NCBI GenBank assembly: GCA_950295325.1 | Contig: OX485809.1 | Coordinates: 36,895,081-36,959,080, forward strand | Direction: 5' to 3' | Length of the DNA stretch: 64,000 nt | From: Polytrichum commune | Lineage: Eukaryota > Streptophyta > Polytrichopsida > Polytrichales > Polytrichaceae | In this document: positions 1,813 through 63,987 of the stretch, one piece after another | Position numbering within the stretch: position 1 is the stretch's first letter | Layout of the letters: every line of letters begins with the position of its first letter | Position numbers and translations under genes: made by a program | Notes under the pieces: model-generated | What the model was told of the DNA's origin: nothing | Seen by the model: only the letters and a program-made list of their open reading frames with translations | Database searches by the model: none

Positions 1813-1849
1813 GTACATTTATTTCTGTTGTAGTTTCCCGTAAGAGTTT

Positions 1850-10055: not shown

Positions 10056-10060
10056 ACTAA

Positions 10061-22869: not shown

Positions 22870-23243
22870 AACACTATATTCGTTAATTAGAGACTTTTAG
22901 ATGATTTTGAGACTATTTAAGGACGCACATTTCAAATAAGAACTAGTAATTACGAACTAAAACTCGGAAATGTATAGGTTTGGAAACAATAATAAGACAT
23001 AAAAACATGGAATTGAACGAAAATGTGAAGCATACATGAAAATATTGGCCTATGAAATGAGAAATGGGCATGAATGGAAGGGAAGATACGGATGATGAAT
23101 GGAAATTGAATTAATTCAATTGGAATGAAATACAAGGATAATGGAAAAACCATCAATGTCTTGGAGAACACGAAATCAAATATAAAGTCATAGATAATAT
23201 CTAATAGCCTTGAACCTATTTTATGTTTAGGGAGTCCGTCCCA

Positions 23244-24172
23244 CTATTTTTTTGTCGCGGCCATTTCTTTTTTTTTGGCAGCCTCCATGGCCCTAAAAAT
23301 CTCCGGCCCGCGGCTATAACCATTACTGTTGACGGACCCGGAATATGTGCCGTTCTTCCGTATAATATTATCCAGACGCGCTCCCGAATTGTACGAAGTG
23401 GTATGGTGAGTGGAATACGATTGCGTTTGGGAGACGGATTGTCTCGTGCTTCGCCGGACGGCCAAACAACGATCGGACTCAGAAGACGTGGCCTTTGGTG
23501 CCAGCCTATCCAAGGACGACGTCGAGGAGGGATGGGCACCCATCGAGCGAGTAGCCACCTGCGAAAGAAGGCAAATTTAGTGGGATTAAATCAAAGGCTT
23601 GAACGGAGTGGGGGAAACGACGGCGGTTTGGGATGTACGTTCGTAAACATCGCGGCCACAAGGGAATGTAAACATGGGAGACAAGTAAACCAACGGCGGG
23701 AAATGTGGTAGGGGAGTAAAAGAAATTGCACCTTGGCTTTCGGGCCGTTGACGGGGGGATCAATGCAAGGGGGACGAGTGACTTGGGAGGAGTTGGCAGG
23801 GGGAGGAGCGGAGGCGGAGGGGAGGGCTTCCTGCGGGGGGGCTTCCATGCGGAGACGCCGGCTTGGACCGCGACGAGGGACGCCGTCCTCCCTTGACGTC
23901 GTAGCCAAACGAACGAGCGTTCGTTTCTCTTTGGAGAGGGGAGAGGGCGAGGGTGCGCGTGTGCGCGAGTGGAGTTTGGGGGGAGGACTATTGACGACGC
24001 CGTCTTCGATCCCGACGTCACGGGAGTAATCCACGGCCGATGCCGCGTCCACCGCCGAGAATTGGTAGAGGGATGGCATTCGGAAGTTCGACGCGTCGCG
24101 CGAGGGGGAGGGAGGGGCCGAGCGGGGAATGAAAGGGCCATCGAGGAGGGGGGCGTCGCAAGGCGGGGCAAA
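23244..24172 (-). pseudogene. Element B copy of the small Pro/Ser- and Lys-rich protein gene
   Basis: Two exons are recognisable by comparison with the A copy at 26.6-27.5 kb: 24172-23732 (acceptor CACAG, donor AAG|GTGCAA) and 23558-23244 (acceptor CGCAG), joined in phase 0. The shared features are an acidic/Tyr block (ASAVDYSRDV against ASTIDYSKEP), V(V/N)xSPPPK, a basic Ser/Pro block (PSPLSKEKR) and, in the last exon, YNSGAR and NGYSRGPEIFRAMEA. The B copy lacks the long AKEKE repeat of A. No known domain. The first exon has an acceptor and so needs an upstream exon, which I could not place. It is called a pseudogene because element B is broken, although these two exons are themselves open. 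Confidence 0.5.
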
Positions 24173-25740
24173 CTGTGAACAACAACAACAACAACAACAA
24201 ACACAACCAAAAGGCATCCAAAAAAGGAATTAGAAATGTGATCCACATGGAAACAAACAAATACACGGTGGCAATTCAAATCAATTTATTGATTTTTGCA
24301 AGCCGCACGATGCTCTTATATACATTGTCGCGGGGACTAAGCGCGGCGTTGCCGATGGGGTTGGACCTAACAAAATCGGGGATGCTCCCGGGGTGGAGCA
24401 CTAGCATTCTAAGATAAGGTGCTAGCCTATCGACCAAAAAGGTATCTTTCCTATCGCCGGTCCAAGTGTCTGGGAAGACGACAGTGCCCGGGGGATTGAG
24501 GACACTCTTCGTTGGGCTGTCGTCGACGAGGAGGGTGTTCTCCGGCGTCGGCCAGTGTCCGTGGGGGACCCCCTCGAGAATGGGGATGCCTCGCCACAAC
24601 CTGGACCGGAGGACCTTGAGGAACTGTTGTCCCCCTCCTCGACCGCCGAACTTGGGCACGGGAAACCCCTTCTCGTCGACTAGATCGTCGCACGCATCTT
24701 GGCCGAGGACGAGGCATGGTCTTGGGAGGCCACGAAAGAGGAAGTCGACGATGGCCTCCGTGTTCTCCATGATCATGGAGCTCCAGACGATCACGTGAAA
24801 GAGGTCGAGCACCTCTCGAAGGAAGTCCCGCGCGCACGCCGGGACGGGCGCGGACGGCCTTGCGGTTTATGAGAGTGTCGAGGTGGCCGTCGTAGTCCAT
24901 CTCGTCGGGTTGGCGAAAGGAACGGGTAGGGACCTTGGGGATGTGTTGGGTGTGACACAACACCCCGTTAAGGTCAAGAACCAGGAAGGGTTTCTGACGG
25001 GTCTGAGGCCCACTTGCCGACGGGTTGCGATTTAACTTCGTGGGGTCCTGTGATTAACAATTTAACTAATTCAATGATATGATCCAATAAATAAATAAAG
25101 ATTGCATTAAGGTAAAAGACGAGGGAGCGAGGGTTTAGAGTGCAATGCGAATGCGCTCAGAGGCACACTTCCAAACGCGCGTTCGTGAATGAGGGTTGCG
25201 GGTGGCGGCGCGCGTCATTTACGAACGTTCGTGAATGAGTGAGATTACAGGCACAATATACGAACGCTCGTTCGTGAAGGAGGTGGACACGGGGTCGCAC
25301 ACATTTACGAACGAGCATTCGTGATTGAGGAAGGGGCATGCAAGAGTTTATAGAAACGCCAGACCATTCACAACACAGGGATTGAATAGACGATGCACAA
25401 AATTGGGAAAATCCGATGCAGAGATAAATTGCTCATATATTAAATCCGTTGCATATTTACAAATGTCTCACGTGATCATCTATCACAATTTCCGTGTTCT
25501 ACAAAATTGTCCTACAAAACTGGCAGGCCTAGGGTGTCACGCAGAAAAGGCTCGCGCGGCCCTCGTGATGCCGCCGGACATGAAGCGCCAATAACAAACG
25601 AAGGGGGGTTAGTTGGTTACGAACGCGCGTTCGTAAAATGAGAGGTATTCTCAGAGATGAGTTACCTCGTCATCGGGGGGAGGGGCAGCGGCGCTGGACC
25701 GAGCAGTTCCCTCCTCTTCGATTAACGAACGCGCGTTCGT
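23909..25740. repeat. Palindrome family 2: arms ACGAACG / CGTTCGT with two variable central bases
   Basis: Copies at 23909-23924 (centre AG), 25260-25275 (CT), 25307-25322 (AG, one arm mismatch), 25619-25634 (CG) and 25725-25740 (CG), a shortened form at 25221-25232 and a half-decayed one near 25173-25187. Most lie in the intron between the linker exon and the FCP1-like exon of element B; those at 23909 and 25725 lie in exons. One more copy is at 46141-46156, on the far side of the nested element. I saw none inside element A or unit C. Confidence 0.85.
24276..25047 (-). pseudogene. Element B FCP1/NIF-type HAD phosphatase-like exon, frameshifted
   Basis: The exon begins at acceptor CACAG|GACCCC (25047, phase 0) and ends with a TGA after KINKLI. 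Visible HAD motifs are the nucleophile block LVLDLNGVL (about 24980), VIVWSSM (about 24780), LVLGQDAC (about 24710) and LLVDDSPTKSVLNP (about 24520). This matches FCP1/NLI-interacting-factor-like phosphatases, in which the motif I aspartate attacks phosphoserine. The second Asp of DxDx is Asn here, as in the A copy. A +1 frameshift near 24838-24845 separates RARPG from ARDFLREVL, so the domain cannot be made in one piece. The upstream exon (25666-26044) donates in the same phase, which suggests it was the C-terminal domain of the large ParB/methyltransferase gene. Confidence 0.75.
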
Positions 25741-26044
25741 AACCTCCATCGGAGCAGCTGCCTCTGCCTCCATGGCCTCTAGTGCATGGCCCGCCTGGGA
25801 CGCCTGGGTCTGTTCGATGAGATCCGCTTCGTCTTCGTCCCCACCCAGGTCGAGAGTCTCCATACGGACATCCTCCATCCGCGCGGAAGGATGCTGACCA
25901 TGCTCAGGGCTCTCAACATCCATGCATGCGATACATGCCGCGTCATTGGGGCTCCCCTGCGTGTCCTCCACAATGAGCATGTCAGTGTGTTCCGCAGTGT
26001 CATCGCCCCTCCTAGCAACTACCATATCTGCAATTGAGGGCAGT
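25666..26044 (-). pseudogene. Element B linker exon, downstream half of an exon split by element A
   Basis: Open minus-strand coding stretch, acidic and Ala-rich (MLIVEDTQGSPND, ADLIEQTQAS, PPPDDE), ending at a GAG|GTAACT donor at 25666. It parallels the end of element A's linker exon (AMLDVEGLQGPGD, ending GE|GTAATA). Its upstream half lies 20 kb away at 46098 onward. Removing element A and one CCTA copy joins them in the same frame (codon start positions agree). Palindrome family 2 at 25725 is translated within it (TNARS). Confidence 0.7.
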
Positions 26045-26048
26045 CCTA

Positions 26049-26475
26049 AACACTATATTCGTTAAATTGAGACTTTTTGGGCATTTTGAGACATTCACAG
26101 AAATAAGAACAAGGATAAATGGAACACATATTGGAGAAAGTTGTAAGATGCGAACACTTTGAAGCGGGTGTTTAGAACAAGAACCCCGTTAATAACTCAA
26201 TATTTGGGATTGTTTAGGGTGGGCAATCCAAAACCTTAGGCCAAGTTCAAGGGGAAATCTTAAAACATTCATATTATCGCACAAAAACTTGTATGAATAT
26301 GGTTTAGGTAGGGCAATCCAAACCATAGATCATATTGAAGGGGAAATATGTGAACCAATATAATATAACATACAAAATATTCCAAACTCATATTTGTGAT
26401 GGTTTAGGTAGGGCAATCCAAACCTTAGACCATATGGAAGGGGAAATCATGTGACACTTATATTATTGCAAAAAA
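26049..26475. repeat. Element A left terminus: TIR plus three ~95-bp subterminal repeats
   Basis: After the TIR, a module reading about GGTTTAGGTAGGGCAATCC, then a variable TTAG or ATAG stretch, then GAAGGGGAAAT, occurs three times (from about 26212, 26300 and 26398). Repeated subterminal motifs are typical transposase-binding regions of plant DNA transposons. 26049-26190 is also shared with the small derivative at 35644-35901. Confidence 0.75.
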
Positions 26476-26590: not shown

Positions 26591-27499
26591 CTATCTAGCC
26601 TCGGAGACTACCTCTTTTTCTTTTGCTTCATTTTCTTTTGCTTCTTTTTCTTTTGCCTCTTTTTCTTTTGCCTCTTTTTCTTTTGCCTCTTTTTCTTTTG
26701 CCTCTTTTTCTTTTGCCTCTTTTTCTTTTGCCTCTTTTTCTTTTGCCTCTTTTTCTTTTGCCTCTTTTTCTTTTGCTGCGGCTTCTTTTGCTCGCATTGC
26801 TTCAACATTCCTGAAAATCTCCGCCCCGCGACTATAGCCATTCTTGGGGTGACCGCCATCAATAACACATTTTGGATTCCGTCGGCCGCCCGAATTATAC
26901 GACGAAGAATTCGAATACGATGAAGTGGACTGTCTTGCATTTCTGGTCATGGAGTAGAAACGCTCCAACTCGACGGACGCACTAGCCCGCATAGGTCTAT
27001 GGGTGGGAGCAACCTGCAACGCGTGAATGCAAGAACACACGTGTTAGTTTAGGGAGGAAGACCCAAACGTGTCACACGTTCATTTTTTAAGTGCCGGATG
27101 ATTGTAATGCGCGGTTAACCATGTTTTGGGGGGGGGGGGGTTCACCTTGTCACCGGGGGCGTTCCCGTCGGAGTCGGCGAGGAGGGGCAATGCGTCCCGC
27201 AAAGGAATAGGAAGGGTGCCACTCTTCGTAGGCCAAGCGTCCATCCACAGCCGCCGTTGAGGTGTACTACTGCCGCCGGGCCGAGAGGGGGACGTCCAGA
27301 CGCATTTGCGATTTATGCCCTTGAGCGGCGACGGGGACAGAGATCGCCGGAAGATTTGCTTGGGTGGGGGGCTATCGACGACGCCGGCGTCAAGAGGCTC
27401 CTTGGAGTAGTCGATGGTGGACGCGGCATCGTAGACGGTCTCGTAGAAGAAGCTCCCCAAGTTTGATTCGCTGACGATCTCAATCGAGGGCTCCAAACG
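26591..27499 (-). CDS. Small Ser/Pro- and Lys/Glu-rich protein of element A (AKEKE repeat)
   Basis: Exons 27499-27146 and 27013-26591, joined in phase 0 (donor AAG|GTGAAC, acceptor TTGCAG). The first exon has an acidic start (IEIVSESNLGSFF), the block AGVVDSPPPK and a basic SPSPLKG stretch. The second has ELERFYSM, SSYNSGGRRNP and NGYSRGAEIFRNVEA, then about eleven copies of a 15-bp repeat encoding (K)EKEA, ending VSEAR and a TAG. The charged repeat predicts a long single helix or a disordered tail, likely nuclear. The B element has a paralogue without the repeat. The first exon starts at an acceptor; the exon before it is not identified and might be a 5' leader, or the transcript may be linked to the upstream gene. 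No known family. Confidence 0.55.
26627..26780. repeat. 15-bp minisatellite (about 11 units) inside the coding sequence
   Basis: TTTTTCTTTTGCCTC is repeated with very few changes. The reverse strand reads (E)AKEK/KEKEA in frame with the gene. Confidence 0.95.
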
Positions 27500-27618: not shown

Positions 27619-28431
27619 TCAAATGAGTTTATTATATTTCGCGTGAGCGTACAACTCTCTGTACATATAGTCCTTCGGATCCATGTATCTTTCGCCTATC
27701 GGATTACAACTAAGGAACTGGGGCACGGGTAGTCCGCTCCCCACGAGCGTTTGAATGTACTTAAGTAGGTCTAACAAAAAGCGGTCTCGGACCTTCTCGA
27801 CCGTCCACGTGGGGCAAACGATGAAGTTGGAGGTCGGGTTCAAAATGTTTTTGGAAGCGCTGTCGTCCACCATCAACGTGTTGTCACGGGTGGGGCGAAC
27901 GTCGTAGGGACAGCCGACCATGGTCGGACGCTGGTCCCATACGACTGGCTTCAAGACCTTAAGAAATTGGTTTACGGCGGGGTTGTTGGGCTTCTTCACA
28001 ACCCTGCCCTCAGGGGTGTACAATGTTTTACAAGAATCCTGTCCTAGGACCAAGCACGGGGGTTGGAGTCCCTTGAAGATGAACTCCACGACGGCCTGGG
28101 TATTCTCGGACTTCATGGAGCTCCAAATGATCACCCACCATTTGGATAGGGCGACCTGTAGGAAGCGCCGAAGCCACGGGCGGAGGTACACTAGCTTGCT
28201 TTTGATGTACGCGGGGGGTCCATCGTAGTTGGCGTCCTCGGGCTTGCAGAAAGGCACCGTTGGGACCCTCGGACAATGCACGCACTGGACAAGGACCCCG
28301 TTGAGGTCTAGCACCAGGAACCGGGTCTTGGGAGGCGAAGGTGGCGAGGGCAAAATCGGGGGGACCACCGCGCTGTCCTCCACACTCCTCAGAGAGGATC
28401 GGTGGGGAGCTGCGACGCTATGCTCCGAACC
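27619..28431 (-). CDS. FCP1/NIF-type HAD phosphatase-like exon of element A
   Basis: Acceptor at CCGCAG|GGTTCG, with a pyrimidine-rich tract before it. Stop TGA after YNKLI. Motifs: RFLVLDLNGVLV (about 28310-28290; the nucleophile Asp is kept, the second Asp is Asn), RPWLRRFLQVAL, VIIWSSMKSENTQAVVEF (the FCP1-type 'W(S/T)S' block), LVLGQDSC and NTLMVDDSASKNILNP (motif III/IV Asp pair). FCP1/SCP-type enzymes remove phosphate from RNA polymerase II C-terminal-domain serines, so a carried copy could influence transcription. The Asn change may reduce catalysis. The exon is fully open, unlike its frameshifted partner in element B. It could also be read as a separate gene if the upstream join is wrong. 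Confidence 0.78.
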   Translation of the reverse strand, partial: GSEHSVAAPHRSSLRSVEDSAVVPPILPSPPSPPKTRFLVLDLNGVLVQCVHCPRVPTVPFCKPEDANYDGPPAYIKSKLVYLRPWLRRFLQVALSKWWVIIWSSMKSENTQAVVEFIFKGLQPPCLVLGQDSCKTLYTPEGRVVKKPNNPAVNQFLKVLKPVVWDQRPTMVGCPYDVRPTRDNTLMVDDSASKNILNPTSNFIVCPTWTVEKVRDRFLLDLLKYIQTLVGSGLPVPQFLSCNPIGERYMDPKDYMYRELYAHAKYNKLI

Positions 28432-31400
28432 CTGCGGCGACGAGCGAGAAAAGGCGGCGAGGACTATGTTATGCTATGTCCATCTCAAGCAGAACGGGAA
28501 TTTTGTGCAAACACAAGAAGAATTGGACCATTGGTGGCAACAAAAACATACAAGGGAACAACATACATTGGGACACGGATGCAAACATATGGGCGCCAAA
28601 AATAATAATTTTATTTTTACAAATCTCTATATACAATTTGATTTGGGGGGGGGGGGCGTGGTGAACGAGGGCATTCACACTATCCTAATTCTACATCTAC
28701 AAAATTGGTTGCGCGCCGCCAAGGTCGAGCGTAGTCGAATGCAGGTGAGACGAAGGGGATCGCGGGGGGGCACGTTGGGGGGAGGGGGAGCAAGTGTAGA
28801 CCAGGGGGGCAGGGGGTGTGCATTTCCTCCTAGCAAGGGGGACACGACCACGCCAACAAGACAGTGACCCAGGAAGTTTGGGTCGGTCGACCCAAACTGG
28901 GAGGGCTCAATGTATTACCTCGCCCTGGTCATGTCTCGATGATGTGGAAGCCTCCACCGTCCCCGCTGCCCCGCCTCTCTCGCCACCGCCTTCTCCGACG
29001 ACGTCAGGAACCTTCTCCTGCAAACGATCGGCATCAGGCCCTTGTCCTAAACCAATCTCCGCATGTGCATCATGCATGGGTTCATCGATTTGGTTAGGAG
29101 TAGAGGTATCACCAGGCCCTTGCAGGCCTTCAACATCTAGCATGGCCGTGTCTAATTGACACCCATGTTGGTCAAGGGAGGACTGCGCTGCAACGGGGTT
29201 TGGGTCGCCCGACCCAAACTATCCTGCATCTGGAGAGGGCCCTTCGGACACTACAGTGGATGGTGGGTTTGGGTCGGTCGACCCAAACATCCTGGGGTCG
29301 TCCGATTGGTGGGGTGGCGCCATGACTATGGGGGGCCGAAGTGGTGGAGGGCCCAAAGGGGAGGAGGCTCCAGAGACGCGCCAGATGTTGGGGTCATCCA
29401 CTTGCTGGACCGGCGCGTATGGAACTTGGTGGGGCCGCATCAAGTGCTGAAAGAAGCTGAAAGACGATTGCGGCACAGGCTGCTGAGGGATGCTCTGCGG
29501 AGGGAAGCCGGGGGGCAAGTGCGGGAAGGAGCTGGAGGGAGCCACCACCAAACCTTGCGCCCACATTCCTTGTATCACTTGTGATATCAAGTCGGCGTGG
29601 GACGGAGGTTGGGCCATCGCCCTTTGACGCTCCTGCTCCAACAGGAGAGCCCTCAGCTCTGCGACCTCGTTCCGCATTGAGGGTTCTTCCGCGGCAGCCT
29701 TCTGCAGGCGGACTCGCTGCTCCTCGTCCCTCCTCATCTTCTCGTTCGCCTCCTCCACAGTCAGGACCTCGGGCTTCACCCTAACCATGCCAGCGAACGC
29801 TGTCGGGGACGGGGGATCTGATCTTAGCCGTTTGGCGAGCTCAATGTCATCGTCGTCCTCGCTACTTATGGCAATGGTCTCCTCCACGGAGTAGTCGCCA
29901 TACAGCTTCTTCCCCTTTAACTTCCTCCTCTCCCTGAACGTCGCGGTGGCGTCCCTGGAGTACATGTCCCGTGCATCGTCCACAGTCAGGACGGGCACGA
30001 GCTTACTCTGCGGGGTTGCCGCCCGCATCGCCTTCTTCCGTTGAGGGGCTTCGGATTGTTGCGTGAAGCCCGTTGCCCCTTTCTCGACGTCGCCTTCCTT
30101 CTCCGCCTCCTCGTGTTCCTCTTCTTCCTTCTCCTCCTCCTCAACCTCGCCACCTTCTGTGCGGGACGGATTGCCCGGATGCAACCCGACCAGAGGTTCG
30201 GAAACTTGGGTCGTGGCCCTCATGGCCATTTCCTCCGGGTTGATGCGCCTCACCCTATCAAGAGGGTTTTCGCCACCCTGAACAACCTCGTCGATGTAGC
30301 TACCCGGGATCCAATCGAGGATGTCCATCTTCTTCGCCAACGATTTCTGCACCCTGTAAAATGGCAGATCGCCATCCTCTATGTAGGAGTATATATTCAG
30401 CCCCGACATCTACACAATCCAAGTTATAGGGAAATTAGAATTTGTCGAGGCAATCACATAAACAAGACTAAGTGAAATGTGTAGTTTGGGTCGGTCGACC
30501 CAAACCTGCAAAGAGCCTAGTTTGGGTCGATCGACCCAAACTGCTTACGAGCTATAGAAAGTCACTTACCATGGCAGCATAGACAGGTTTTGAGCCTCCG
30601 AAGACGTTGAAGATGCAGTCCCCTCTCCTCATCAGCGTCCTCATCATTCTCATGTAAAATTCCATCCGCAGCTCATCTGCAGGATAGTTCGCGTATTTAG
30701 CCTCGTCGTAGAGGCACTTGTTCGCACCCAACCCTTCTGGAACTTGGAAGAGTTTGTCCATCCGGGATATAGGGTGGTTTGGCACCTTCAGCAACTCCGT
30801 TTTGTACACGAAGTACAAACACAAGACGTTGACGAACTTGGTCTTCTTGTCCCTCAACGTCGTGTAAGCTCCCTCCGCCGGTGCGGCGATGTAATGAGAC
30901 TTGGAGACTGCATACTCCGGCTGCAGTTTCCGGACAAGCTCGTACACCTGCTCCGCCCTTCTATCCTCGACTATCCAAAGCCAGATATCTACCTCCCTGA
31001 ACTTAGGGCTTGTATAATCGACGAACTTAGTTAAGAAGGGGTCATAGAAGAGGGTGCTCATCGTGCCCTCAAATGAGCTTCCAGGAATATTTCTAAAATC
31101 AATCATCCCAAAAGGAAAGCGGTCCCTTGCTTTCGTCCTTATCGCCATTCTGGCGTCTTGACCTGGCCAGCCCTGAATTTTCAAAGGCTCGAAGGTGACA
31201 AGGTTGAAGTAAGCGTCCCCTTCAAACTGGACAATCTTCTTCTCCTTGATGAAGTTCGAGAACGCACGCGCTGTGTGATCCGGAAGCGCCCGGTTCTTCC
31301 CACCCTTCACCATCTTGGCCCGCAAGAAGTCGTCCCCCGCTTCCCTTATTAGAGCCGCCATGGAGGCACTAGTGAATTTATATTCATCTTTGAATGCTCT

Positions 31401-33495
31401 CCAGTTAGCCCCATGAACCTCGCCGTCCACGACAATATTCCTCTCTGGCACCAATTTATGCAGCTCTTGCACGATAGTCGTCTTCTTTTTCCTGTTCTCC
31501 GTCCATTCCTTCATGGTGTAGCATGAAGGAACGAAGGATTTGGGCTTTACGAAGACAATCTTCGGGTGCACCCAGCACCTCTTGGCCGTGGGTGCCACGT
31601 GCAGGATGTGCGATGCCGCCTTCTCCACCTCCGTCTCTGACAGCCCTTGAAGAGTTCTAAAGAACTCTCTCACGAGAGGCTTCATCTGCTTGAAGCGCGA
31701 GGCCAGGCTGAAGAAAGCGCCAGTATCAGGATCGATCAAATCCCCCGTCTCGTGCTTTTCAAACACGGTTTTCCACTTCCTCCAAACTGAGTCCGATGCT
31801 GTAATCAAGTAAATCTCCCCCTTCAGGTCGCTGTATTTCTTCTGCTTGTGGCTCGAATTATCAATGGAGGAGAATTTGTTGATCATTTGGTATTTGAAAT
31901 CCTGCACGTGAACAAAACAGAACATTTGAATGCGTGTTAGTTAAGTACATGTGATTTCCAAACCATATCATGACCAACATCTACAACAAGAGTTTGGGTC
32001 GGTCGACCCAAACTGAAAAAAAACACAAGACTGCAACAGTTGTTTGGGTCGATCGACCCAAACTAAAAAAACACAAGACTGCAACAGTTGTTTGGGTCGA
32101 TCGACCCAAACTTAAAAAAAACACAAGACTGCACCAGGAGTTTGGGTCGGTCGACCCAAACAATACTCACCTCCCACTTGGGATTCTTGTCCTTCGCATT
32201 CTCCCTCTCCTTGGGAGGCCTACCATAGAACTCCCACACCTCCCGCGAGGCCATGATATTCCTTATCCAGGAAGCTTGGTAGGCCCTCTTCTTGTTTCCC
32301 ATATTGAAGTACCGGGAGATGTCGCTGAGCTTGGTCTCGTCGTCAGACCACACCACCAGTGCCTTCCAAACCTTCAGCTTTTCCTTCTGATTGTTGGGAT
32401 CGTCCCACTCATTCATGAGTTGGATTTTCTTGGATGCCTCCACGCTGTGTTGGCCGTCTATCAGCCAAAAATCGCCCTTCTGAATTGTTGGCCACATTTC
32501 AGGTGTAGGCATTTTCTTGAGACCCTGTGGCATCACTACAATCGTTTGCCTGTCGTCTTTAAACTGCTCGCAAATGATCTGCGCGATTATCCAGTCAACG
32601 TAGGCGTCCTCCTTTGCCCGGACACACTTCTCCGGTGGCGCTAGATGGCACTGGCTGATGTTCACGTCGAACTTGAAATCCCTGCCCATGAAAAAACAGT
32701 GGGAGCATTTCGTCGTGAAATTGTTCACGATTTTCTGCAGCTCCCCTGCATCCACCTCTTCGCCGGGCTTCAGCATGCGCAACTCCGGTGAGACTGGCTC
32801 GTCAGTCATCACAGATGACTCTCTCGCCCTCTTGGATGGAGTTGTTTGACGGCTCCCAGAAGGTGTAGGGGTCTCACTATTCGTAGGTGTTTGGGAGGGA
32901 GTGGTCCTACGCGAGTCAGCCAGTACTGGTAGCGGCATCCTCACCGATTGAGGTCTTGACGACCCTGCTCCTTCCTCTGTGGGAGCTTTCCGCCTCACAG
33001 GTTGCTGTGATTTGGTTTTGCTTTGCAGGCCCCTGTTCAGCACGGTTATTGCATGTTTTAGTTTTGTGAACCGGCTTGAGACCTTGGTATTCGATGTACT
33101 CCCATCGATAAATATTGTCTCCGGCTTGATAACTTCCGGTTCGACACAGGACTCTCTTGCATAGAGTGCGTCGAAAGGCTCGGAGAACTGGTGCATGAAC
33201 ATATGCGCGTTCTGCACAGCCGAGTTCTCGAGGATGACGTCGGTATAGTCTCCAAGAGACTGTACCGATGCGACCTCCCATCCCGTAAGAGTCGCCCAGG
33301 TGTGTTTCTCCACGGTTCCCACCTTGACAACAAAAATCATTTTGTATGTTGAGGCTTTGACTACTTGAATAGACCAAGCGAGGACAAGCCCGTCCTTAGG
33401 GGAATAGGAGTCATCCTGCGGGGTTTCGTGCTCCTGCCACAACATGTCCGGCGCAGGCATGAACCACCTTTCGCCGGGTCTTTCTTTGGAGCCAT
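27619..33495 (-). CDS. Large ParB-like / amino-methyltransferase-like / FCP1-like gene of element A (one in-frame stop)
   Basis: Four exons with matching phases: 33495-32171, 31901-30570, 30409-28919 and 28431-27619. Introns are GT-AG (GTGAGT, GTAAGT and GTAATA donors), and all joins I could place are phase 0. The product would be about 1,650 residues plus unknown upstream exons. Order: a novel N-terminal region, a ParB-like domain with an IDGQHS motif, a methyltransferase-like domain whose motif I is split by an intron, a long acidic/Pro-rich linker, and an FCP1/NIF-type HAD domain. A single TAG at 29219-29221 interrupts the linker exon; the frame continues beyond it to the proper donor, so the copy is a recent pseudogene or makes a product without the HAD domain. 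The last join (28919 to 28431) is inferred from phase and from the equivalent exon pair in element B. Each intron contains family 1 palindromes. Confidence 0.62.
28919..30409 (-). CDS. Linker exon of the large gene, with palindromes translated in frame and one TAG
   Basis: The first ~50 residues complete the methyltransferase-like domain (SYIEDGDLPFYRVQKSL). The rest is disordered: an EEEEKEEEEHEE run, an acidic SSEDDDDIELAKRL block with basic flanks, a coiled-coil-like stretch (AELRALLLEQERQRAM) and Gln/Pro-rich sequence. Two family 1 palindromes are translated as FGSTDPN (29267-29288) and FGSGDPN (29198-29219). The TAG at 29219-29221 uses the first base of the second palindrome. Beyond it the same frame runs on to the donor GAG|GTAATA at 28919, so it is almost certainly one exon with a nonsense mutation. 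Confidence 0.6.
30570..31901 (-). CDS. Exon with divergent beta-class amino-methyltransferase-like domain (large gene of element A)
   Basis: Begins DFKYQMINKF after acceptor GTGCAG and ends at YAAM|GTAAGT. Near the 3' end GDCIFNVFGGSKPVYAAM continues in the next exon as MSGLNIYSYIED. This corresponds to motif I of beta-class N6-adenine/N4-cytosine methyltransferases (FxGxG..AA, then an acidic residue after the next strand) in the expected C-terminal place. Upstream, FGMIDFRNIPG (about 31081-31113) sits where the catalytic D/N-PP-Y motif IV should be, but the PP-Y is not conserved. In motif I the last Gly is Lys. It may therefore bind DNA or cofactor without methylating. Unit C's gene shows the same order of blocks. 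Family membership is inferred from motif order and intron placement. Confidence 0.52.
32171..33495 (-). CDS. Exon with ParB-like domain (large gene of element A)
   Basis: The exon opens after acceptor TTACAG and ends KNPKWE|GTGAGT. The first ~130 residues (LVLAWSIQVVKAS, HTWATLTGWEVASV) are unassigned. A disordered Ser/Thr/Pro/Lys segment follows (about 32,950-32,800). The last ~200 residues contain KGDFWLIDGQHSVEASKKI (motif at about 32444-32458), which matches the 'DGxHR..A' signature of the ParB/sulfiredoxin fold that binds nucleotide and clamps DNA in plasmid partition and related proteins. The usual Arg after His is Ser here. The following block (LSDISRYFNMGNKKRAYQ) resembles the helical DNA-binding part after ParB domains. 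Assignment rests on motif shape; a profile search would decide it. Confidence 0.6.
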
Positions 33496-35643: not shown

Positions 35644-35901
35644 ATCGGTATATTCGTTAATTTGGGATTTTTTTTGGCATTTTGAGAAAGTTACAAATAT
35701 AAGAACATGGATAAAATCGCACGTACATTGGAGAATGTTGTAAGATGCAAATACTTTGAAGCGGGTGTTCATATCAAGAACGCAATTAAGATCTCATATG
35801 AAGATGGTTTAGGTACGACGACCCAAACATTACACTATGTTGTTGTGGTCCATATATTAATTTGAGAGAAGAGAAAATCTCAAATTAGCGAATTTTAGGG
35901 T
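35644..35901. mobile_element. ~258-bp non-autonomous derivative of the element A/B family
   Basis: The left end resembles A's left end (TATATTCGTTAATTTGG, then GGCATTTTGAGA, then GATGCAAATACTTTGAAGCG). The right end resembles A's right end (CCATATATTAATTTGAGA, then TCTCAAATTAGCGAATT). The middle of the element is missing. It lies inside element A. The terminal bases have diverged and I could not see a TSD. Confidence 0.7.
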
Positions 35902-38146: not shown

Positions 38147-41100
38147 GTTTGGGTCGACCGACCCAAACCTGTCCACTAGTGTGTTAGGGTTTATGTCTGA
38201 CCCTTAACATGTTTGGGTCGGTCGACCCAAACCCCAACCCCAGTGTGTTAGGATTTTTATCTGACCCTTATCAGGTTTGGGTCGACCGACCCAAACCTGT
38301 CCACTAGTGTGTTAGGGTTTATGTCTGACCCTTGTGAGGTTTGGGTCGGTCGACCCAAACCCCTACCCCAGTGTCTTAGGGTTTTTTTCCTGACCCTTAT
38401 CAGGTTTGGGTCGACCGACCCAAACCACTACATGGTGTGGGTGGATGTACTCTTGTGAGGTTTGGGTCGGTCGACCCAAACCCCTACCCCCAGTGTGTTA
38501 GGGTTTTTTCCTGACCCTTATCAGGTTTGGGTCGACCGACCCAAACCCCTACGTGGTGTGGGTGGATGTACCCTTGTGAGGTTTGCAAATCCCTACTCCA
38601 GTGTGTTAGGGTTTTTTTCTGACCCTTGTCAGGTTTGGGTCGACCAACCCAAACCACTACCTGGTGTGGGTGGATGCACCTTTGTGAGGTTTGGGTCGGT
38701 CGACCCAAACCCCTACCCCCAGTGTCTTAGGGTTTTTTCCTGACCCTTATCAGGTTTGGGTCGACCGACCCAAACCCCTACGTGGTGTGGGTGGATGTAC
38801 CCTTGTGAGGTTTGCAAACCCCTACTCCAGTGTATTAGGGTTTTTTTCTGACCCTTGTCAGGTTTGGGTCGACTGACCCAAACCACTACCTGGTGTGGGT
38901 GGATGCACCCTTGTGAGGTTTGGGTCGGTCGACCCAAACCCCTACCCCCAGTGTCTTAGGGTTTTTTCCTGACCCTTATCAGGTTTGGGTCGACCGACCC
39001 AAACCCCTACGTGGTGTGGGTGGATGTACCCTTGTGAGGTTTGCAAACCCCTACTCCAATGTGTTAGGGTTTTTTTCTGACCCTTGTCAGGTTTGGGTCG
39101 GCTGTGAACCCTTTGAGTGGTCCACCACTCTGCGGGATCACTTTTAGTTAGAATGTTAGCATTAAAAGTTAGAATTGATAGGGAATTTAGGGAAAATTAG
39201 TTCATTTAGCATTTAGCCTAGAAGAAGGAAGGTCAAAATGAAACTAAGTAGTGCTAGAAGATAGCAAAGTAGAAAACATATGCTAGCTAGTAAAAACAAC
39301 TAGCTAAGCAAATATTAGTAGATGCTAGTTATTAAGCAATTGTTAGTAGATGCTAGCTAAGCAAGTGTTAGTTTATTAGTTAGTGTGAGGCACACAAGAC
39401 TATTGGAGGTGTTTTACGTAAGAAGATAAAATCGGCGTGAAGAATTTTGAAGACAAAAAAGAAAGAGAGCAAGGGGGATACTTGCCCACTTGCCCCCTTG
39501 CCAACTCGATGGCGGAAAAATTAGAAAGATTTCTAAAGGTTTTTTGTCGGAGCCACCTCGGCGAGAGGGTGGCAACCTCAACCGGGAAAACCCCCGAGCC
39601 AAAATTTCGGGAAAGGGTTTGAAAAATGGATCCGGTGGAGGAGGGGTCCAACCCTTTTGTGAGAGGGTTTAAAAACCCCTCCTTCCACCTTGTAGCTCTC
39701 TCTCTTTCTCTAGTTTTTGGGCGAAGCCCTGCTTCAATGTAGTTAGGAAAAAATCCTTTAGCATGTATTCTCAATGGTCTAAAAGAAAGGCTTGAGAACC
39801 TCCTCTACTTTCTCTCTCCTAGTTAGGTTGTGTGTTTATTAACACACCAACAAAATTATTCCTTCTTTTGTAGAGGTAGGTTGGATGGTAGAGTTTTGAG
39901 TAGAGGCATTATAGACCTCATCTGCCAATGCCCTGAAGGCTTAGTTCAAAAGCTAGAACAAGATACTTATCATTTTTCTCTTAGAGAGATTTCATATAGC
40001 TATCCATAGCCGTTTCCCATTTGTGATTTGGTTGAGATGACAATTAGTTATGGATTTTCAAAGATGGAGTAGAAAAACTGGGTGGTCTTGTGGGTAGCGG
40101 CTGCTGGATCAGACCTGCGAGCCCAATAGGAATTTTAATTCCAAGAAATTATATTTTTCCCAAGTAGAACTTTTGTGTAGCTTTCCAAAATGGCTTAGAA
40201 CATTTGATTTGAGCATGATTTGAATTAGATATGAATTGTGCAAGATGGGACACATAGTTTGAGAACTTTTGGTTGACTGCTGCATTACAGAGGACCTGCT
40301 GGGTTCACTTCGGCTTACCTTTCTAATCAAATATTTTTATCAAATACATCTTTTTAATATCTCTCCAGGGTCGTATAGAACGTTTGATTTGACTAAGATT
40401 TGAATTAGATATGAATTGTTGAAGGCGAGATACATAGTTTAAGCCTTCTTGATTGACTGCTGTGTTACAAGGAGTCCGCTGAATTTCTATTAGCTTAACC
40501 TGCTGATGTCATAATTTTTCTAGTTAGAGCTTGTTCATAGCTTTCCAATGGTATAAGGAAAGCCTAGATCCAAGTAGTAAGGAATGTGCTATGAATTTTT
40601 GAAGTTAGAAGGTAGATAGGTGGGTTGGAAGGGCCGGTTGAATCGACCTCACACTTCCAACCCTCATAACTTTTGCATTTCTTATCCGATTAGAGTGATT
40701 TTTAGATCATTGGAAAGATAATTTGGTGCACTAAGTATAAATATTATGCTTAGGATTAAATTACAGGGCAGAATAACACTTTATATTTTAATTGTTAACT
40801 AAGGTACGCTTACTACCAAACTAGTTACAAAGAAGGAGGCAAGGTCGACGCTCGGAAAGTGGAGCAAGGAAGGAGGTAGCGGCTCGGCCTACATCAAGCC
40901 CAAATCAACCGAGGAAAATTGAGGTAAATTAACTAACCTTAAGCCTTCCATTTAGGATTGGAGGGAGCACGGCTAAGGTACGCATTTCTAAACCCACTCA
41001 CCTATCTCGTAAGGTCAAGTGGCTTGACCACTTGACCGCCAAGGGAGTATCCAATTCCATTGTTTTCGGGGCCCTTGGTATGTTTTGTGGTAGTAGCTTC

Positions 41101-42318
41101 ATTTATTAGCAAGTTTCGTGTGTGGTAAGTCGGATTAATCACCGACACGACCACTCTGAATGTTGTTGGTGGAAAGGTGGGGTTAATGACCCGCGAATCC
41201 ACTATTATGTTGTTGGCCCCATAGATTGGGAGTAATGGCCCCAATTTATGAAGATTGCGCAACAGGTTGAACCTACAGGTCGCCCGTCACCCTGGTCCCA
41301 TTGAGTTGCATTTCGTGGTCTATCCAGTGTAAACACATTTAACAATCAAAACATACAAAATAAATCGTAAACCCTTGTTGGCAAGAGACCCGAGGTAAGG
41401 GGTGATGCCTAATATGTTAATGTAGTGAGTTAGGACGTGCAAACAAAAGTAAGTAATTAAGAAGGAATTTGTGTGAAGGGTGGGACTTAGGCCAAGTTCC
41501 CCCGCTTAGAAAACTAAATAGAACTAAATAAATAAATAGGAAGAATTGAATGGTCCATCAAATTGTCGTTATTCCGTTCGTTGAGTTAGGGTGGTATGAG
41601 TCACACCCGGTTGGGTGTATCAGAACCATCCCAATTCACAAATTAGGATTGCCTTGGTTTCAAGGCTGGTGCGTCTGCGCGTAGAATAGGTTGTAGGTTA
41701 AGGTTAGAACTAGATATGAAATTGGTTAGTGGAGTTTAAAGCCACACTAGTAAAAAACTAAGGCCTAACCTCCGGAGGTACTACGACGCATATTTAATCT
41801 CCCTTAAAAATCTAACTACTCACGTTATACACCTATCATCCGGGTTCGGCTTGGGCGCCTGCAAATGCAGGCCACCTTCACCGAAGGGCTTGTGTGATAC
41901 TTTTAGGCTCCCTCGAAAGGGGGTGGCCCAAAAGTACCACATCGGCCGACCCAAACCACTACCTGGTGTGGGTGAATGCACCGTTGTGAGGTTTGGGTCG
42001 GTCGACCCAAACCCCTACCCCAGTGTGTTAGGGTTTTTTTGTCTGACCCTTGTCAGGTTTGGGTCGACCGACCCAAACCCCTACCTGGTGTAGGTGGATG
42101 CACCCTTGTGAGGTTTGGGTCGGTCGATCCAAACCCCTACCCCAGTGTCTTAGGGTTTTTTCCTGACCCTTATGAGGTTTGGGTCGACCGACCCAAACCC
42201 CTACCTGGTGTGGGTGGATGCACTCTTGTAAGGTTTGGGTCGGTCGACCCAAACCCCTACCCCAGTGTGTTAGGGGTTCAGTCCGACCCTTATGAGGATT
42301 GGGCCGGTCGACCCAAAC
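38147..42318. repeat. Large palindrome family 1 array, interrupted by the LTR element
   Basis: About twenty copies of the GTTTGGGTCG-N2-CGACCCAAAC palindrome at 38147-39102 and 41942-42318. They are embedded in a higher-order repeat of about 230 bp (CCCAGTGTGTTAGGG, TTTTTCCTGACCCTTATCAG, GGTGTGGGTGGATG). Copies alternate in centre (mostly AC then GT). The LTR element at 39103-41941 split one palindrome exactly between its arms (TCGGC target). The array ends shortly before the DUF7869 gene and may be its upstream region. Confidence 0.95.
39103..41941 (-). mobile_element. Solo-LTR-like element, copy 2 (2,839 bp, inverted)
   Basis: Reads TGTGAACCC at 39103 and ends GTACCACA at 41941. It is the reverse complement of copy 1 at 10061-12899 and has the same length. 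TSD TCGGC at 39098-39102 and 41942-41946. Differences from copy 1 are few (for example the long T run of copy 1 near 12535 is broken here). Inserted in a family 1 palindrome of element A, so it is younger than element A's array. Confidence 0.9.
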
Positions 42319-42494: not shown

Positions 42495-45400
42495 ATGGAG
42501 GGAGTTGGTGGAAGAGGGGATTCCTTCTCTGACGACATGGGCAACACCCAATCTACGTCTGGGGATGAGCTAGACATTGTTGGGGAGGATAGTTTTGATG
42601 ACAGTGCAGATGAAGGTGACTTAGGGAGTCCTTCGCCATCTGCCCCTTCTTGCCCCACTATGGAATGTGCTGGGCTTTCACGAGCTTTATGGGTGAATTT
42701 GGATGTAGTACTTGTTAATGACAGTGGAGTTGCTGTGGCGGAGGGTATTTGTCGTAACACACATCCATAAGATTGCATTGATGAAAACCCCCTTGGCACC
42801 GAGGACGTTGGAGTTGTTATATTGGAATCACTCGTACATTCTGAAGTGAATCCAACTCATAGGTTCTCGTTGCGAAGGTGGCCGTTGAAGAATGTGACAA
42901 TTGATGGGGTTAATTTGCATGAGCATGAGCGACGACACATCCAAATCCAAGAAGAGCTCCAAGCAAACATTCGGCCACGCAAAGGCCTACGGAAGTACGA
43001 TACATTGGCACGTCCTACTCCGTCTGCAAATGAGTGTAAACGTCAAAGGTTGCTTTGTGAGGAGTCCATTAGAGAAGTTGCCACAAAGGATTGTTGTGTA
43101 CATCGTTGTTGCCAATTGTTCCCAAGGGATAAATTGAAGGCCATCCGCGAGGAAATGTGGCTTGGAGATTTCCGTCTAAGATCCACCAAAAAGCTTGATG
43201 TCCATAGGGCGGTACATGTGAACGGAGCGGGTCGCAAGGTCATCACCCTTGAGAGCATAGACGTGTGTTGTACCGCATGGTACATCATTCACGGTGTGTC
43301 GAAAGCGGAATTTTATAGACAAACCGCGTATGCCAAGGAAGGCCGCCGGTCCCGTCACCATGGGAATACGGGCTTAAAGAAACCAAGGGAAGCAACGAGA
43401 CAAGCAACCGCCACTCTGGCAACCATCATTGTCCCCCTTGCCAATGCAATGCCGCACAAAACACGCACACTCGCAACCGGTGAAAAGGTTGTGGAGAAGG
43501 TTCTTCCTACAGGCACGAAATGGAAAGACATATTGTTGGACGTAAACGCAGTTGGCGAGAAGGCTGGGTTGGACCCTATTTCGTTGTCGAAACTGAGTGC
43601 AATAAAAAAATCTCACTTTAGCGAATACATCACAAAAAGACGAGGCGACAAATTTGCCCGTTGTTCCAAATGCGAGAAGTTGAAACGCCTTCGAGATGCA
43701 CACACGATGGGGACAGAATCCTATGCCGCACATCAAATGAACTATTTCAAGCATGTGAACATGCAAGAGGCACACCGTAATGATTACTACACAAATAGAG
43801 CTTTGTCCATCTCTAGGCCTTCGGAGGTCCTTACAATCATCCATGACAAAATGGACCATGCCAAAATAGCCTCACCATGTTTTGCAAATCGAATCAAAGC
43901 CACGGATGGCCTTTTTAAGCTTCCTGTATCGGTTACAGGTGATTTTGATAACAATTGCATTGCATTACCTAAACACAAATTTGTGCTTTAGGTTTGTACT
44001 TGGGGCCATAGATGTACACCATGTGAATTTTTTGGTGTTATAGTTGAATATTAAACCATTGGGTTGGCTTTACAGGGATGATTGCACATGGATATGGTGA
44101 TGTCAAGTATGCTCATTATGCTCTTGATTTGTATCCGGCGGATTCAAACCACACGATAGGGTCATTTGCAAAGCTTTTACGTGATTTGGAGAAACCGCCG
44201 TCCTATTCATCAAGATTGTTATTTGAAAACTCGGGATCAACACCTCTATATGAAGCGGTCTTGGATGGAAGAGATGTATGCGTGCACTCCTTGCCGGAGC
44301 CACGAAGTGAAGATGTGATTGCCAAGAATTTGCCCCCAACTCTGCGTGTCCAATTGGACAATTGTGCGAAGGACAATAAAAGTAGATATGTTTTTGCATA
44401 TTGGTCGTTGTTGGTTGCGAAAGGCATTTTCAAGGAGGTTTTTGTGTCCTTTCTATTGGTAGGCCACACGCACGACGATATCGATGCATCTTTTGGGCGG
44501 TGGAGCATGAAGTTGCGCGAGGAGGATTTTCCGACAATCCCATTGTTGATGAAGTCGTACATGGATTTGGAGAACATTCCCGTCATCCCCCATATGATCG
44601 AGGAGGTTCCAGACTTCAAGGCATTTATAGAACCGTATATTCGAAGCGGAGCTCACCGATTGATCGGACATACGAAGGCACAACAATTTCGGTTCTACGT
44701 GCGTGACGATGGTGTCCCCGCCATGCAATACAAGTTGTTGTGCACGTCACAAGACTGGAGCCCGCCGGAGGGTCTCCTTGTATGGCGTGTTGATGGGGAG
44801 GGAAGGACGATGTTGCCTGACGGAGAGCCTAAGCCTTGCAAACCAATAGTAATGAAGAATTTGGAGGACATTTATAAAGGCATATCAGGCTTCATACAAT
44901 ATTGGGAGAGTTTGAGGGTAGCGGATGTTGGTGGATCGTGTTGGCTTCGTTACGGAAGTTGGATACAATATTGGACACGTGTTCGTGGTGCTTTGGCAAA
45001 CCTTCATCAAGATACACCCCTTACTTTAAGGCATGGGTTTTGGCCACAAACTCGTGTCAATGTACAAGCTTCGGAGGCTAGTCTTTTGGGAAATGGAGAG
45101 GTTCGAGAGGAATTTGATGTGGACGACCATTACGTGGGGCCTGCTAGTAGTCGTCCGCCACCATCTTTCCGCATTGCAGTGGATTGTCATGAAGGTTATA
45201 TGCTCATTTTGCGTCCTGGAGATGAGACATATGCAAAGCCAGTGTGGGTGGCAAGAGCTTTGTCCAAACCAAATTTTGTAACTTCCAGCCCTCATTTTCG
45301 ACAAATACAAGTAGAGTACTACCGACCGACAGCACAGAATGAAGATGTTGTTCGGCATTATACAGGCTGGGATACAAACCAACACTTTCGGTGGAAGGTG

Positions 45401-45562
45401 GATTCTGAGCACGGTCCATCTTGGGTAGATACAGATTCCATATTCATAGCATGGAAACCACGGAAAAATCATAGTGGATCAGTGTCCATCCCTCAAAAGT
45501 ACATAACTTTTGCAAAAGACAACCTTGCTCGGATCGCAGAAGAAGCAACCCACGTTGAATGA
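42495..45562 (+). CDS. DUF7869-type protein, putative transposase of element A (one in-frame TAA near the N-terminus)
   Basis: Exons 42495-43938 and 44076-45562, joined in phase 1 (donor ACAG|GTGATT, acceptor TTTACAG). The join recreates VTGMIAHGYG. The N-terminus is acidic; a Cys/His-containing region follows (KDCCVHRCCQLF), and a further Cys pair (RCSKCEKL) is at about 43660. The C-terminal half carries the DUF7869 blocks: HDKMDHAK (about 43845), LDLYPADSNHTIGS, LDNCAKDNKSRYV (about 44355) and VGHTHDDIDASFGRW (about 44455). The spaced Asp/His residues look like an RNase H-like DDE/D centre, so transposase activity is inferred; DUF7869 is uncharacterised as far as I know. A lone TAA at 42768-42770 interrupts the frame before the conserved region and continues in the same frame after it. 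Stop TGA after THVE. Confidence 0.68.
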
Positions 45563-46093
45563 GAAGTTGGTAGGATTGTGTTAGCATGATTATAGTGTAA
45601 TATGTAATTCGACGAATATATATTACTCATATGTGTTCTCCTCAAACTTGGGGCAAAGTTTGGGTAGAACTTGCGAATGCTATATTGTTTGGGGTTGGAT
45701 GAATATCCATTTACTATATTTCAATACAGTTGTGAAGTTCATTTTTTTATTAAGTTTGGGACTAAATTGTCCATTGAAGAAAAATGCATTTATTGCATGC
45801 ACTTTGTATGTTGCAATGTCTATATTTTATTGACCATGCTAATAATAGAAATCATTTTATATGTTTTTTGGGTGAAACTAGTTTGGAGTGCTCTACCCAA
45901 AGTGTTTTTGTTGATGAAGTTGGTGTTGAGTGCTCTACCATATGTGCTTATGTCCACACATAATAGATTTGGGATATTAGAACATATAATATATTTGAGA
46001 TTGTTCGCAATATAGTTTCGGAACACGGAATGTTGTTTGATCCATATATTAATTTGAGACTAGAGAAAGTCTCAATTTAACGAATATAGTGTT
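45563..46093. other. Element A right terminus
   Basis: AT-rich 3' flank of the DUF7869 gene, ending in the right TIR. An inner fold-back (TTTGAGACT...AGTCTCAATT) lies just inside the TIR, as in the small derivative at 35.6-35.9 kb. Confidence 0.7.
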
Positions 46094-46097
46094 CCTA

Positions 46098-48056: not shown

Positions 48057-48109
48057 GTATGCGAGCGGTGAGCGGAGAGCGGAGAGCGGCAATTTGGAGA
48101 GTGGAGAGC

Positions 48110-57610: not shown

Positions 57611-57866
57611 TATATGGCCTGTATATGTACTCTATACATTAGGATAACTGAGTATGCCTTAGTATGACTGAAGATGGTTTGAGGTTTCTCGTTGCGCTTA
57701 CAGGTGGCCCTCTATGGGTTTTTTTTCTTTGTTTGATTATGAAGCTTCAGGTTTTGGTTATTGATCTGATTTTAAGGTTTAGGAGTGCGCTTTAGTTCAA
57801 TTGTTTGGAGTTAAAGACAAGTTCTTATCACTTCTAATGTATTTTGATGCTGAGACTTTTGTTCAG

Positions 57867-62760: not shown

Positions 62761-63987
62761 ACTCCATTTTGTATTGGATTGTATTATTTTTGGCTTTTAG
62801 ATTTCCGGCGCAAGTCTCATACTTGCTCTTCTTTATTTCATTCCCATAATGTCAACCCGCATTGCATTTTTCAATTATTATTGTAAATATTTTTAGTTTG
62901 TGGATTAGCCCTTAAGTATAGTTCAAGTATCCCTAAACGGTATGCCTCTCACAATCTTAACCGCTAATGTAGCATCCACCCATTCAAATATAAAGTTGGT
63001 GCCTCACACACCTCCTCCTTGTTTCACTAAATCATAAATACTCAATAATACTTAAGTTGCACACCATACAACACTTTCTATAATGTTCACCCTCAAATGT
63101 TAACCCTCGGGAAACGATCATAGTTAACATTTATTAAGGTGTTAACAGTTCCCAATTATAAAATTGTTTTATCGACCAATATACAAATCTTAACATTTAT
63201 AAATATAAGCATTTTTGAAGAGTCCTTGTGAGAGAATACCATTCATAAAATTGCAAACCCAATCAAAACTTTATTCAATATGAAGTTTAGAAATCATGGG
63301 TGAAGTATGAATCATGGGCATGCACAACTTGCAAATATTTCTCAATTTGCACCAACAAACCCACATACTTGGACACCCACATGAACGTGTTTCCATGTAC
63401 CTTCTAATGGAAGTTCTCATGTGCCTCCATTCTTACACTTCCGTCACTAGAACTAAACGTAGCCAAACGTAGTCTTTCCAAAGAGTAGTTATGGTTGCAT
63501 TTCATTCGTTAACATATATAGAGTCAAATTTAAAAGTGTGCAATATGTGGGGAGTAGAATAAAGTTAACAATTAGAAAGGGTTAACATTTATAGGTGTAA
63601 CATTAATAGAGTGGACTATATGTGGGGAATTCTTTTCACATACCTCCTTCGTGTTTCCTTCATATAGTAATTTTTATTTGATTTACAGTGATATGTACTA
63701 TAGTACACAAGTTTGGTAATTGTATTTATGACGTAATAGTGATGTAAGCCCTAATTTTGTATTTTATTATAATATATATATGTTTCAAAAATATGTAAAC
63801 GTTTCAAATGGGGAAATGTTGTTCTATTTCCACGGTAATAGAGACCCTAACTCATAAAATTTTCTAAAAATAGATCTACCCTAAACCCATAATCTTACGG
63901 TTATAGGTGCATTTCCCCTCTCAATTCATGTCTCAAATGGAGTTCTCCGCTCTCCAAATCGCCGCTCTCCGCTCTCCGCTCGCATAC
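62761..63987. other. Unit C right subterminal region and right inverted repeat
   Basis: AT-rich, no gene seen. The right inverted repeat occupies about 63938-63987 (TCTCCAAATCGCCGCTCTCC, then CGCTCGCATAC). Confidence 0.6.

Follow-up and report, generated by a model that had tools for sequence, protein, structure and literature searches.

Can one gene carried by a DNA transposon encode a protein that joins ParB-like, methyltransferase-like and FCP1-like phosphatase parts, and what would such a protein do for its element? The question is raised by a 64,000-nucleotide stretch of Polytrichum commune DNA (GCA_950295325.1, contig OX485809.1, positions 36,895,081 to 36,959,080; hereafter the window), in which a first-pass annotation had placed a three-part fusion of this kind on the reverse strand between 33495 and 27619. 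The gene, here called the accessory gene, lies in a transposon that we call element A. Its predicted splicing to a HAD exon is supported by gene structure, spacing and selection, whereas the ParB-like and methyltransferase-like parts are supported only jointly and weakly.

Element A was delimited as a DNA transposon of 20,045 bp at 26049-46093, or about 17.2 kb without a 2.84-kb insertion. Its terminal inverted repeats (TIRs), AACACTATATTCGTTAAATTGAGACTTT at 26049-26076 (+) and its counterpart at 46066-46093 (-), are 28 bp long and perfect (28/28 identical), and the target-site duplication is 4 bp, CCTA adjoining on both sides (26045-26048 and 46094-46097). The element sits nested inside a second one, element B, and removal of 26049-46093 together with one CCTA restored a 285-codon open frame of element B across the join. 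A further copy on contig C1 aligned nearly end to end at 96-97% identity, was flanked by the duplication ATAA and had no 2.84-kb insertion; for a third copy most of the element aligned (87-98%), with the left end outside the alignment. Because of these repeats, the 4-bp duplication, the restored element B frame and the further copies, element A is a giant TIR transposon, with two divergent genes, and the accessory gene is transposon-borne as had been claimed. Divergent to it, at 42771-45559 (+), lies a candidate transposase gene with a DUF7869 domain (PF25273, 6.4e-42 within 44048-45559 in a profile search), which is probably the transposase of the element. The 4-bp duplication fits Sola-type DNA transposons. 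The insertion (39103-41942, 2,840 bp) has an inverted copy, 99% identical, at 10060-12899, and a short piece resembling a miniature inverted-repeat transposable element, whose ends resemble the terminal repeats of element A, lies at 35649-35893.

The accessory gene was resolved into four exons on the reverse strand. Exon 1, taken from the first in-frame ATG (32171-33460), encodes an N-terminal part and the ParB-like segment with IDGQHSVEASKK. Exon 2 (30570-31901) encodes an unassigned N-terminal region followed by a methyltransferase-like core that ends in the motif I-like FNVFGGSKP, and exon 3 (28919-30409) encodes the end of the methyltransferase-like part and then a low-complexity linker. 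The HAD exon (27619-28431) encodes a NIF/FCP1-like domain with the nucleophile motif DLNGV and ends in a TGA stop. All introns are GT..AG and every junction is in phase 0. The coordinates, splice sites and phases of the earlier exon model were therefore right, but the model had overlooked an in-frame TAG at 29221-29219 in exon 3, and the ATG at 33495 is not in the reading frame of exon 1, leaving 33460 as the candidate start.

The genome (407.8 Mb, 64 contigs) was searched for further copies, the window copy being included in each list. The HAD query gave at least 142 scored matches among 1283 candidates, with 90-100% identity, 122 of the 142 being free of internal stops; the exon 2 query gave at least 95 scored matches among 1232 candidates, 71 of them without a stop. 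Of the 95 scored exon 2 matches, 75 were followed on the same strand, at 2.87-3.2 kb, by a HAD match, and 86 had one on the same strand within 20 kb; none had one on the opposite strand within that distance. For comparison between copies, the 30 best-scoring of the 142 HAD matches and of the 95 exon 2 matches were used, including the window copy, which occurs as rows WIN and L025 and was counted once. Since the best scores were chosen, this sample leans towards window-like copies. No ATG precedes the HAD motif within the HAD exon in any of the 30 distinct copies, so an upstream exon is required, the nearest of matching phase being the linker exon. Together with the spacing and with the selection acting on the HAD exon and exon 2, this gene structure supports a predicted fusion of exon 3 to the HAD exon through splicing.

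The splice sites were well kept between copies. The exon 1 donor GGAGGTGAGT was found in 26, the exon 2 acceptor TGCAGGATTT in 24, the exon 2 donor TATGGTAAGT in 27 and the exon 3 acceptor TGTAGATGTC in 27 of the 30 copies, window copy counted, and the two sites that would join linker and HAD were kept in 25 (donor CGAG/GT) and 28 (acceptor CGCAG/G) of the 29 others, the slash marking the junction. The site of the TAG is a sense codon in 26 of the 29 other copies and is poorly aligned in the remaining three (L029, L031 and L040). The last 230 codons before the linker donor are open in 24/29 copies, the exceptions being L029, L031, L039, L040 and L046, and in the database relative P0006 exon 2, intron, exon 3 and linker form a single frame without that stop. 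Among the copies examined, the TAG was thus seen in that of the window alone.

Constraint was estimated as the ratio of nonsynonymous to synonymous substitution rates (dN/dS, Nei-Gojobori method, pooled over the 435 pairs of 30 copies). The ratio was 0.11-0.12 in the HAD exon and 0.22-0.23 in exon 2, where 7 of the 30 copies contain a stop, indicating that both exons are clearly under purifying selection. The part of exon 3 before the TAG gave 0.38-0.39, and exon 3 contains a stop in 8/30 copies.

The HAD exon matched PF03031 with an E-value of 9.1e-14 (51.9 bits against a curated cut-off of 21.8), as expected from the earlier assignment of the domain to the NIF/FCP1 family. It matched TIGR02251 at 3.4e-8, far under the curated cut-off of that model, and the HAD alignment, searched against PDB sequences, had UBLCP1 as its sole match (3e-4). 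The WSSM and VDDS motifs are present. DxDx(T/V) is the catalytic motif of NIF/FCP1-like HAD proteins, and its Asp at position +2 is the general acid in HAD phosphatases. In the HAD exon this Asp is Asn, the motif reading DLNGV in the window and DLNG in 30/30 copies, so that the set of HAD motifs earlier described as full is not. The relatives that cover the motif also read DLNGV, except P0037 (DLNGI); P0021 is without the motif and several relatives are cut short. By profile the exon clearly belongs to the NIF/FCP1 family, with an altered catalytic motif. Because of this alteration the domain might either dephosphorylate targets such as RNA polymerase II or chromatin proteins, or only bind phosphates.

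With up to 4 mismatches allowed, the 20-bp palindrome TTTGGGTCGNNCGACCCAAA(C) has 34 sites in the window, all of them within element A, and 20 shuffles gave none. The exact TTTGGGTCGNNCGACCCAAA pattern was found at 9,731 sites genome-wide and at none for a reversed control. A tandem array of it spans 38148-42318, split by the insertion at 39103-41942, upstream of the probable transposase gene. Four palindromes lie in intron 1 (31993-32161), and others occur in intron 2, in the intron that precedes the HAD exon and 5' of exon 1; two of the 34 fall in exon 3 of the accessory gene. Many copies retain the palindromes of the first two introns: in intron 1, 27 of the 30 aligned copies have two of the four sites unaltered, and 13 lack a third. 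To judge from the protein letters, the read-through introns of P0004-P0006 appear to encode the same palindrome and that of P0007 another (FGPxGPN). Each of the elements A, B and C in the window has its own palindrome, that of element B being TACGAACGCGCGTTCGTA (7 places) and that of element C GGTGCCGTTAACGGCACC (19 sites, both with up to 4 mismatches).

The ParB-like and methyltransferase-like parts were assessed by their motifs and in a joint test. The IDGQHS motif reported earlier is present in exon 1. At Box II, GxxR reads GQHS in the window, P0004 and P0005, the Arg being replaced by Ser; in the nucleotide binders tested in PMC12704722, substitution of Ala for this Arg eliminated binding. 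As for the motif I said to span an intron, FGG...AA does end exon 2 and the next E opens exon 3, but the motif is degenerate, NVFGGSKP being without the usual Asp and second Gly. The tetrapeptide (D/N/S)PP(Y/F/W) is absent from the segment in five A-family proteins, where by eye IDFRN stands in the region. With Ser in place of the Box II Arg and no catalytic tetrapeptide, nucleotide binding and methyl transfer are both doubtful. In the joint test, a profile of the A-family proteins (window and P0004-P0007) was compared with six phage proteins that contain a ParB domain and carry a methylase annotation, of which all six have GxxR and five have DPPY. Motif I, with a score of 23.2, and Box II, with 22.3, were the two best matches and followed each other as they do in the phage proteins. 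Among 200 block shuffles 10 reached 23.2 and none gave a second match of 22.3 (highest 21.5). Without L011, which has no DPPY, the five remaining phage proteins gave 23.4 and 23.3, reached by 10/200 and 1/200 shuffles. In a comparison with the phage methyltransferases plus element C, element A scored 24.4, in register at motif I, and the best of 20 shuffles reached 17.3; the probability was 4%. For the element A gene, the assignment to ParB and methyltransferase is thus jointly, if weakly, supported by motifs in the proper order, and the first-pass annotation stands to that extent; neither segment alone gave a significant profile match. Elsewhere in the same genome, three loci (L018, L019 and L020, on contigs C12 and C23, which are not that of the window) match ParB (PF02195) above the cut-off.

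Element C, a further transposon-like element, carries a gene of the same order of parts. This gene (57854-62470, +; several exons, set by eye) encodes DGNHR and a clear methyltransferase domain that matched phrog_3008 at 2.8e-10 and PF01555 at 6.7e-6, with 26.6 bits just under the cut-off of 26.7. It keeps the motif I DLTAGTG and GNHR, and its motif IV reads EYPD. An intron lies inside motif I in element C, and a few residues after motif I in element A. The GGTGCCGTTAACGGCACC sites lie between the gene and the open frames of the opposite strand and in one intron, and are carried by 234-bp tandem repeats. Element C suggests that the pairing of a ParB-methyltransferase gene with a palindrome array may not be peculiar to element A. 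A search with the spliced element C protein gave nothing at E 0.001 among 8000 candidates scored. The TIRs of this element lie around 48070-48107 and 63944-63981, and inspection by eye revealed no target duplication. Its long open frames on the reverse strand, at 52547-50178 and beyond, to 48.5 kb, gave no telling Pfam match.

Element B had been cited as a second instance of the fusion. Its 3' part (22870-26048, -) has the left TIR at 22870-22897, a HAD exon from 25047, in two frames, and possible exons at 24172-23732 and from 23558; its exon 3 part (46094-48057, -) reaches about the end of element C, by which element B was perhaps also cut. Exon 3 and linker are what the restored 285-codon frame encodes. 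Element B does repeat the linker-to-HAD arrangement, but its ParB and methyltransferase exons are absent from the window and so it supports that junction only.

Taken together, these observations suggest the following explanation, which we prefer but hold tentatively, at slightly under an even chance. The accessory gene would be spliced to give one protein, with ParB-derived and methyltransferase-derived parts, a low-complexity linker and a NIF/FCP1-type HAD domain. The ParB/methyltransferase-derived part would bind the element's own TTTGGGTCGNNCGACCCAAA, probably without active methylation, as the layout of the sites suggests, and would carry the HAD domain, acting either as a phosphatase whose mechanism has changed or as a phospho-binding module, to chromatin or RNA polymerase II. 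The element might in this way stay transcribed, sequence-specific self-binding countering silencing. A bolder version, which we consider doubtful, is that a phage-type ParB-methyltransferase was turned into a catalytically dead, sequence-specific loader on the element's own parS-like palindromes that tethers an FCP1-type HAD domain, a self-directed switch of transcription and chromatin, and that the palindrome-protein pairs of elements A, B and C co-evolved, convergently with the VANC system.

Several results count against the preferred explanation. The palindrome is tied to the protein by the layout of the sites only. No significant match to Pfam, PHROG or NCBIfam was obtained for the ParB and methyltransferase segments of element A: Pfam gave no match of any kind to exons 1-3, and none to the ParB segment with PF02195 either, while PHROG 1033 matched at IDGQHS with an E-value of only 0.048. 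Neither the ParB nor the methyltransferase match was significant by itself, hhalign probabilities being at most about 5%, and single shuffled profiles scored up to 33.0. The ParB segments of elements A and C matched each other no better than shuffles did (6/30 as high), tblastn searches with them gave no phage match up to E 10, and a scan of viral contigs gave no relative of exon 2. AlphaFold2 models of exons 1 and 2, made from 3 and 5 sequences, had predicted local distance difference test scores of 32.7 and 34.3. Exon 1 in frame (33397-32171) gave a dN/dS of 0.65 and contains a stop in 13/30 aligned copies; for its ParB-like part the ratio is 0.53 and 10/30 copies have a stop. The linker gave 0.77 (27 copies, 351 pairs, after removal of three rows that aligned poorly). 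The ParB-bearing exon 1 is thus much less constrained, which tells against the explanation or points to fast change there. Finally, 20 of the 95 scored exon 2 matches had no HAD match at the expected distance.

The lack of a HAD match beside these 20, and the constraint on exon 1, far below that on HAD, would both be accommodated if the HAD exon mostly served a separate or alternative product as an alternative last exon, with two further stretches as the other ending. Such stretches exist 3' of the HAD stop codon, open, in phase 0 and with splice-site-like ends. Possible exon 5 (27146-27499, -) has no ATG until late and by eye resembles 24172-23732 of element B; possible exon 6 (26594-27013, -) ends in KEKEA repeats, a 15-bp tandem array, and is similar to element B at 1.9e-9. 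The TAG of the window copy, moreover, precedes the linker. However, none of the 30 copies has an ATG before the HAD motif, the nearest donor of matching phase is kept in most of the 29 others, and exon 6 appears unconstrained (dN/dS of 1.06 among copies over its first 60 codons; 0.59 for exon 5). An alternative last exon would in any case still be a fusion in one isoform. We regard this alternative as unlikely, though far from negligible.

A similarly modest probability attaches to the view that the palindromes have nothing to do with the ParB-like protein, being either binding sites of the transposase or selfish tandem repeats. The largest array does lie upstream of the probable transposase gene, and tandem repeats form easily. 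Against this view stand the sites in the accessory-gene introns, that next to the HAD exon included, and those 5' of exon 1, the retention of the intron 1 and 2 palindromes in many copies, or the fact that each of the three elements has its own palindrome.

That the ParB and methyltransferase likeness consists of chance motif matches in a protein of other origin would agree with the empty profile searches, the poor structure models and the weak constraint on the ParB-like part. We consider it improbable, since the two motifs were the top two profile matches, in order, with none and 1 of 200 shuffles yielding such a second match, and since element C shows the same order with a significant methyltransferase match and an intron at motif I near the position of that in element A. 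A similar arrangement is also described in algal transposons in the pertinent passage of PMC12477816. The least probable alternative is that the protein works as an adenine or cytosine-N4 methyltransferase and marks the DNA of its own element, a possibility raised for Sola1-1_Ec32 of Ectocarpus in that passage (PMC12477816) and in keeping with the DLTAGTG and GNHR retained by element C, but at odds with the degenerate motif I of element A and with a tetrapeptide that has no visible counterpart in A (IDFRN, by eye) and reads EYPD in C. The earlier suggestion that the protein marks its own DNA is accordingly not favoured for the element A gene, in which the catalytic motif is lost; that it clamps its own DNA is possible.

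Away from these elements, the window contains at 230-1840 (+) a match to DUF4218 (1.8e-31) and weak matches to DUF4216, as in CACTA transposons.

With regard to known systems, the closest are ParB-methyltransferase proteins of transposons reported in brown, green and red algae, including Sola1-1_Ec32 of Ectocarpus (PMC12477816), for which a role is only suggested in the passage concerned. Since a ParB-methyltransferase gene on a transposon is common to these and to element A, this part of the gene is of a known kind, and the earlier statement that no such protein had been described holds only in part. To the algal arrangement the element A gene adds the linker and NIF/FCP1 HAD exon, degenerate catalytic motifs and palindrome arrays; HAD is not mentioned in the algal passage on ParB-methyltransferase proteins, and the string "palindrom" does not occur in the text (PMC12477816). 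The HAD exon and the palindromes look new: a literature search aimed at ParB, methyltransferase and HAD together gave no paper, and none was aimed at palindromes. The ParB-N6/N4 methyltransferase fusions of phages likewise place a ParB-CTPase fold before a methyltransferase on mobile elements, as described in PMC12704722; the phage proteins considered here (L009-L017) have 369-416 amino acids in a single frame, with no HAD domain noted. With the NIF/FCP1/SCP phosphatases of PF03031 the HAD exon shares the profile match, WSSM and VDDS, but it has DLNGV and is borne by a transposon. Retrotransposons with captured cytosine methyltransferases (PMC5890265) also carry a gene related to DNA methylation, although those described there are C5 DNA methyltransferases in retroelements.

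A high-copy relative of the algal genes whose HAD domain is strongly constrained by purifying selection, and about ten thousand copies of a palindrome in a single genome, make the role testable. If the proposed explanation is right, a transposon would control its own chromatin, eukaryotic transposons would have re-used a prokaryotic DNA-partition fold, and sequence-specific anti-silencing would extend beyond the VANDAL elements. VANC, the protein concerned in those, is different from the element A accessory protein, and element A differs from VANDAL elements in its 4-bp duplication. In the sections of PMC5735166 that deal with them, VANC motifs are tandem repeats located 5' of VANA and within the introns of VANC and VANB, and VANC21 and VANC6 have different motifs. 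Element-specific arrays in the element's own introns and upstream of its transposase gene are thus laid out as in element A, although VANC motifs have 8-9 bases and are not called palindromes there, in contrast to the 20-bp palindrome of element A (PMC5735166). By this analogy of layout, the element A system is best seen as an analogue of VANC anti-silencing in VANDAL elements and not as its relative.

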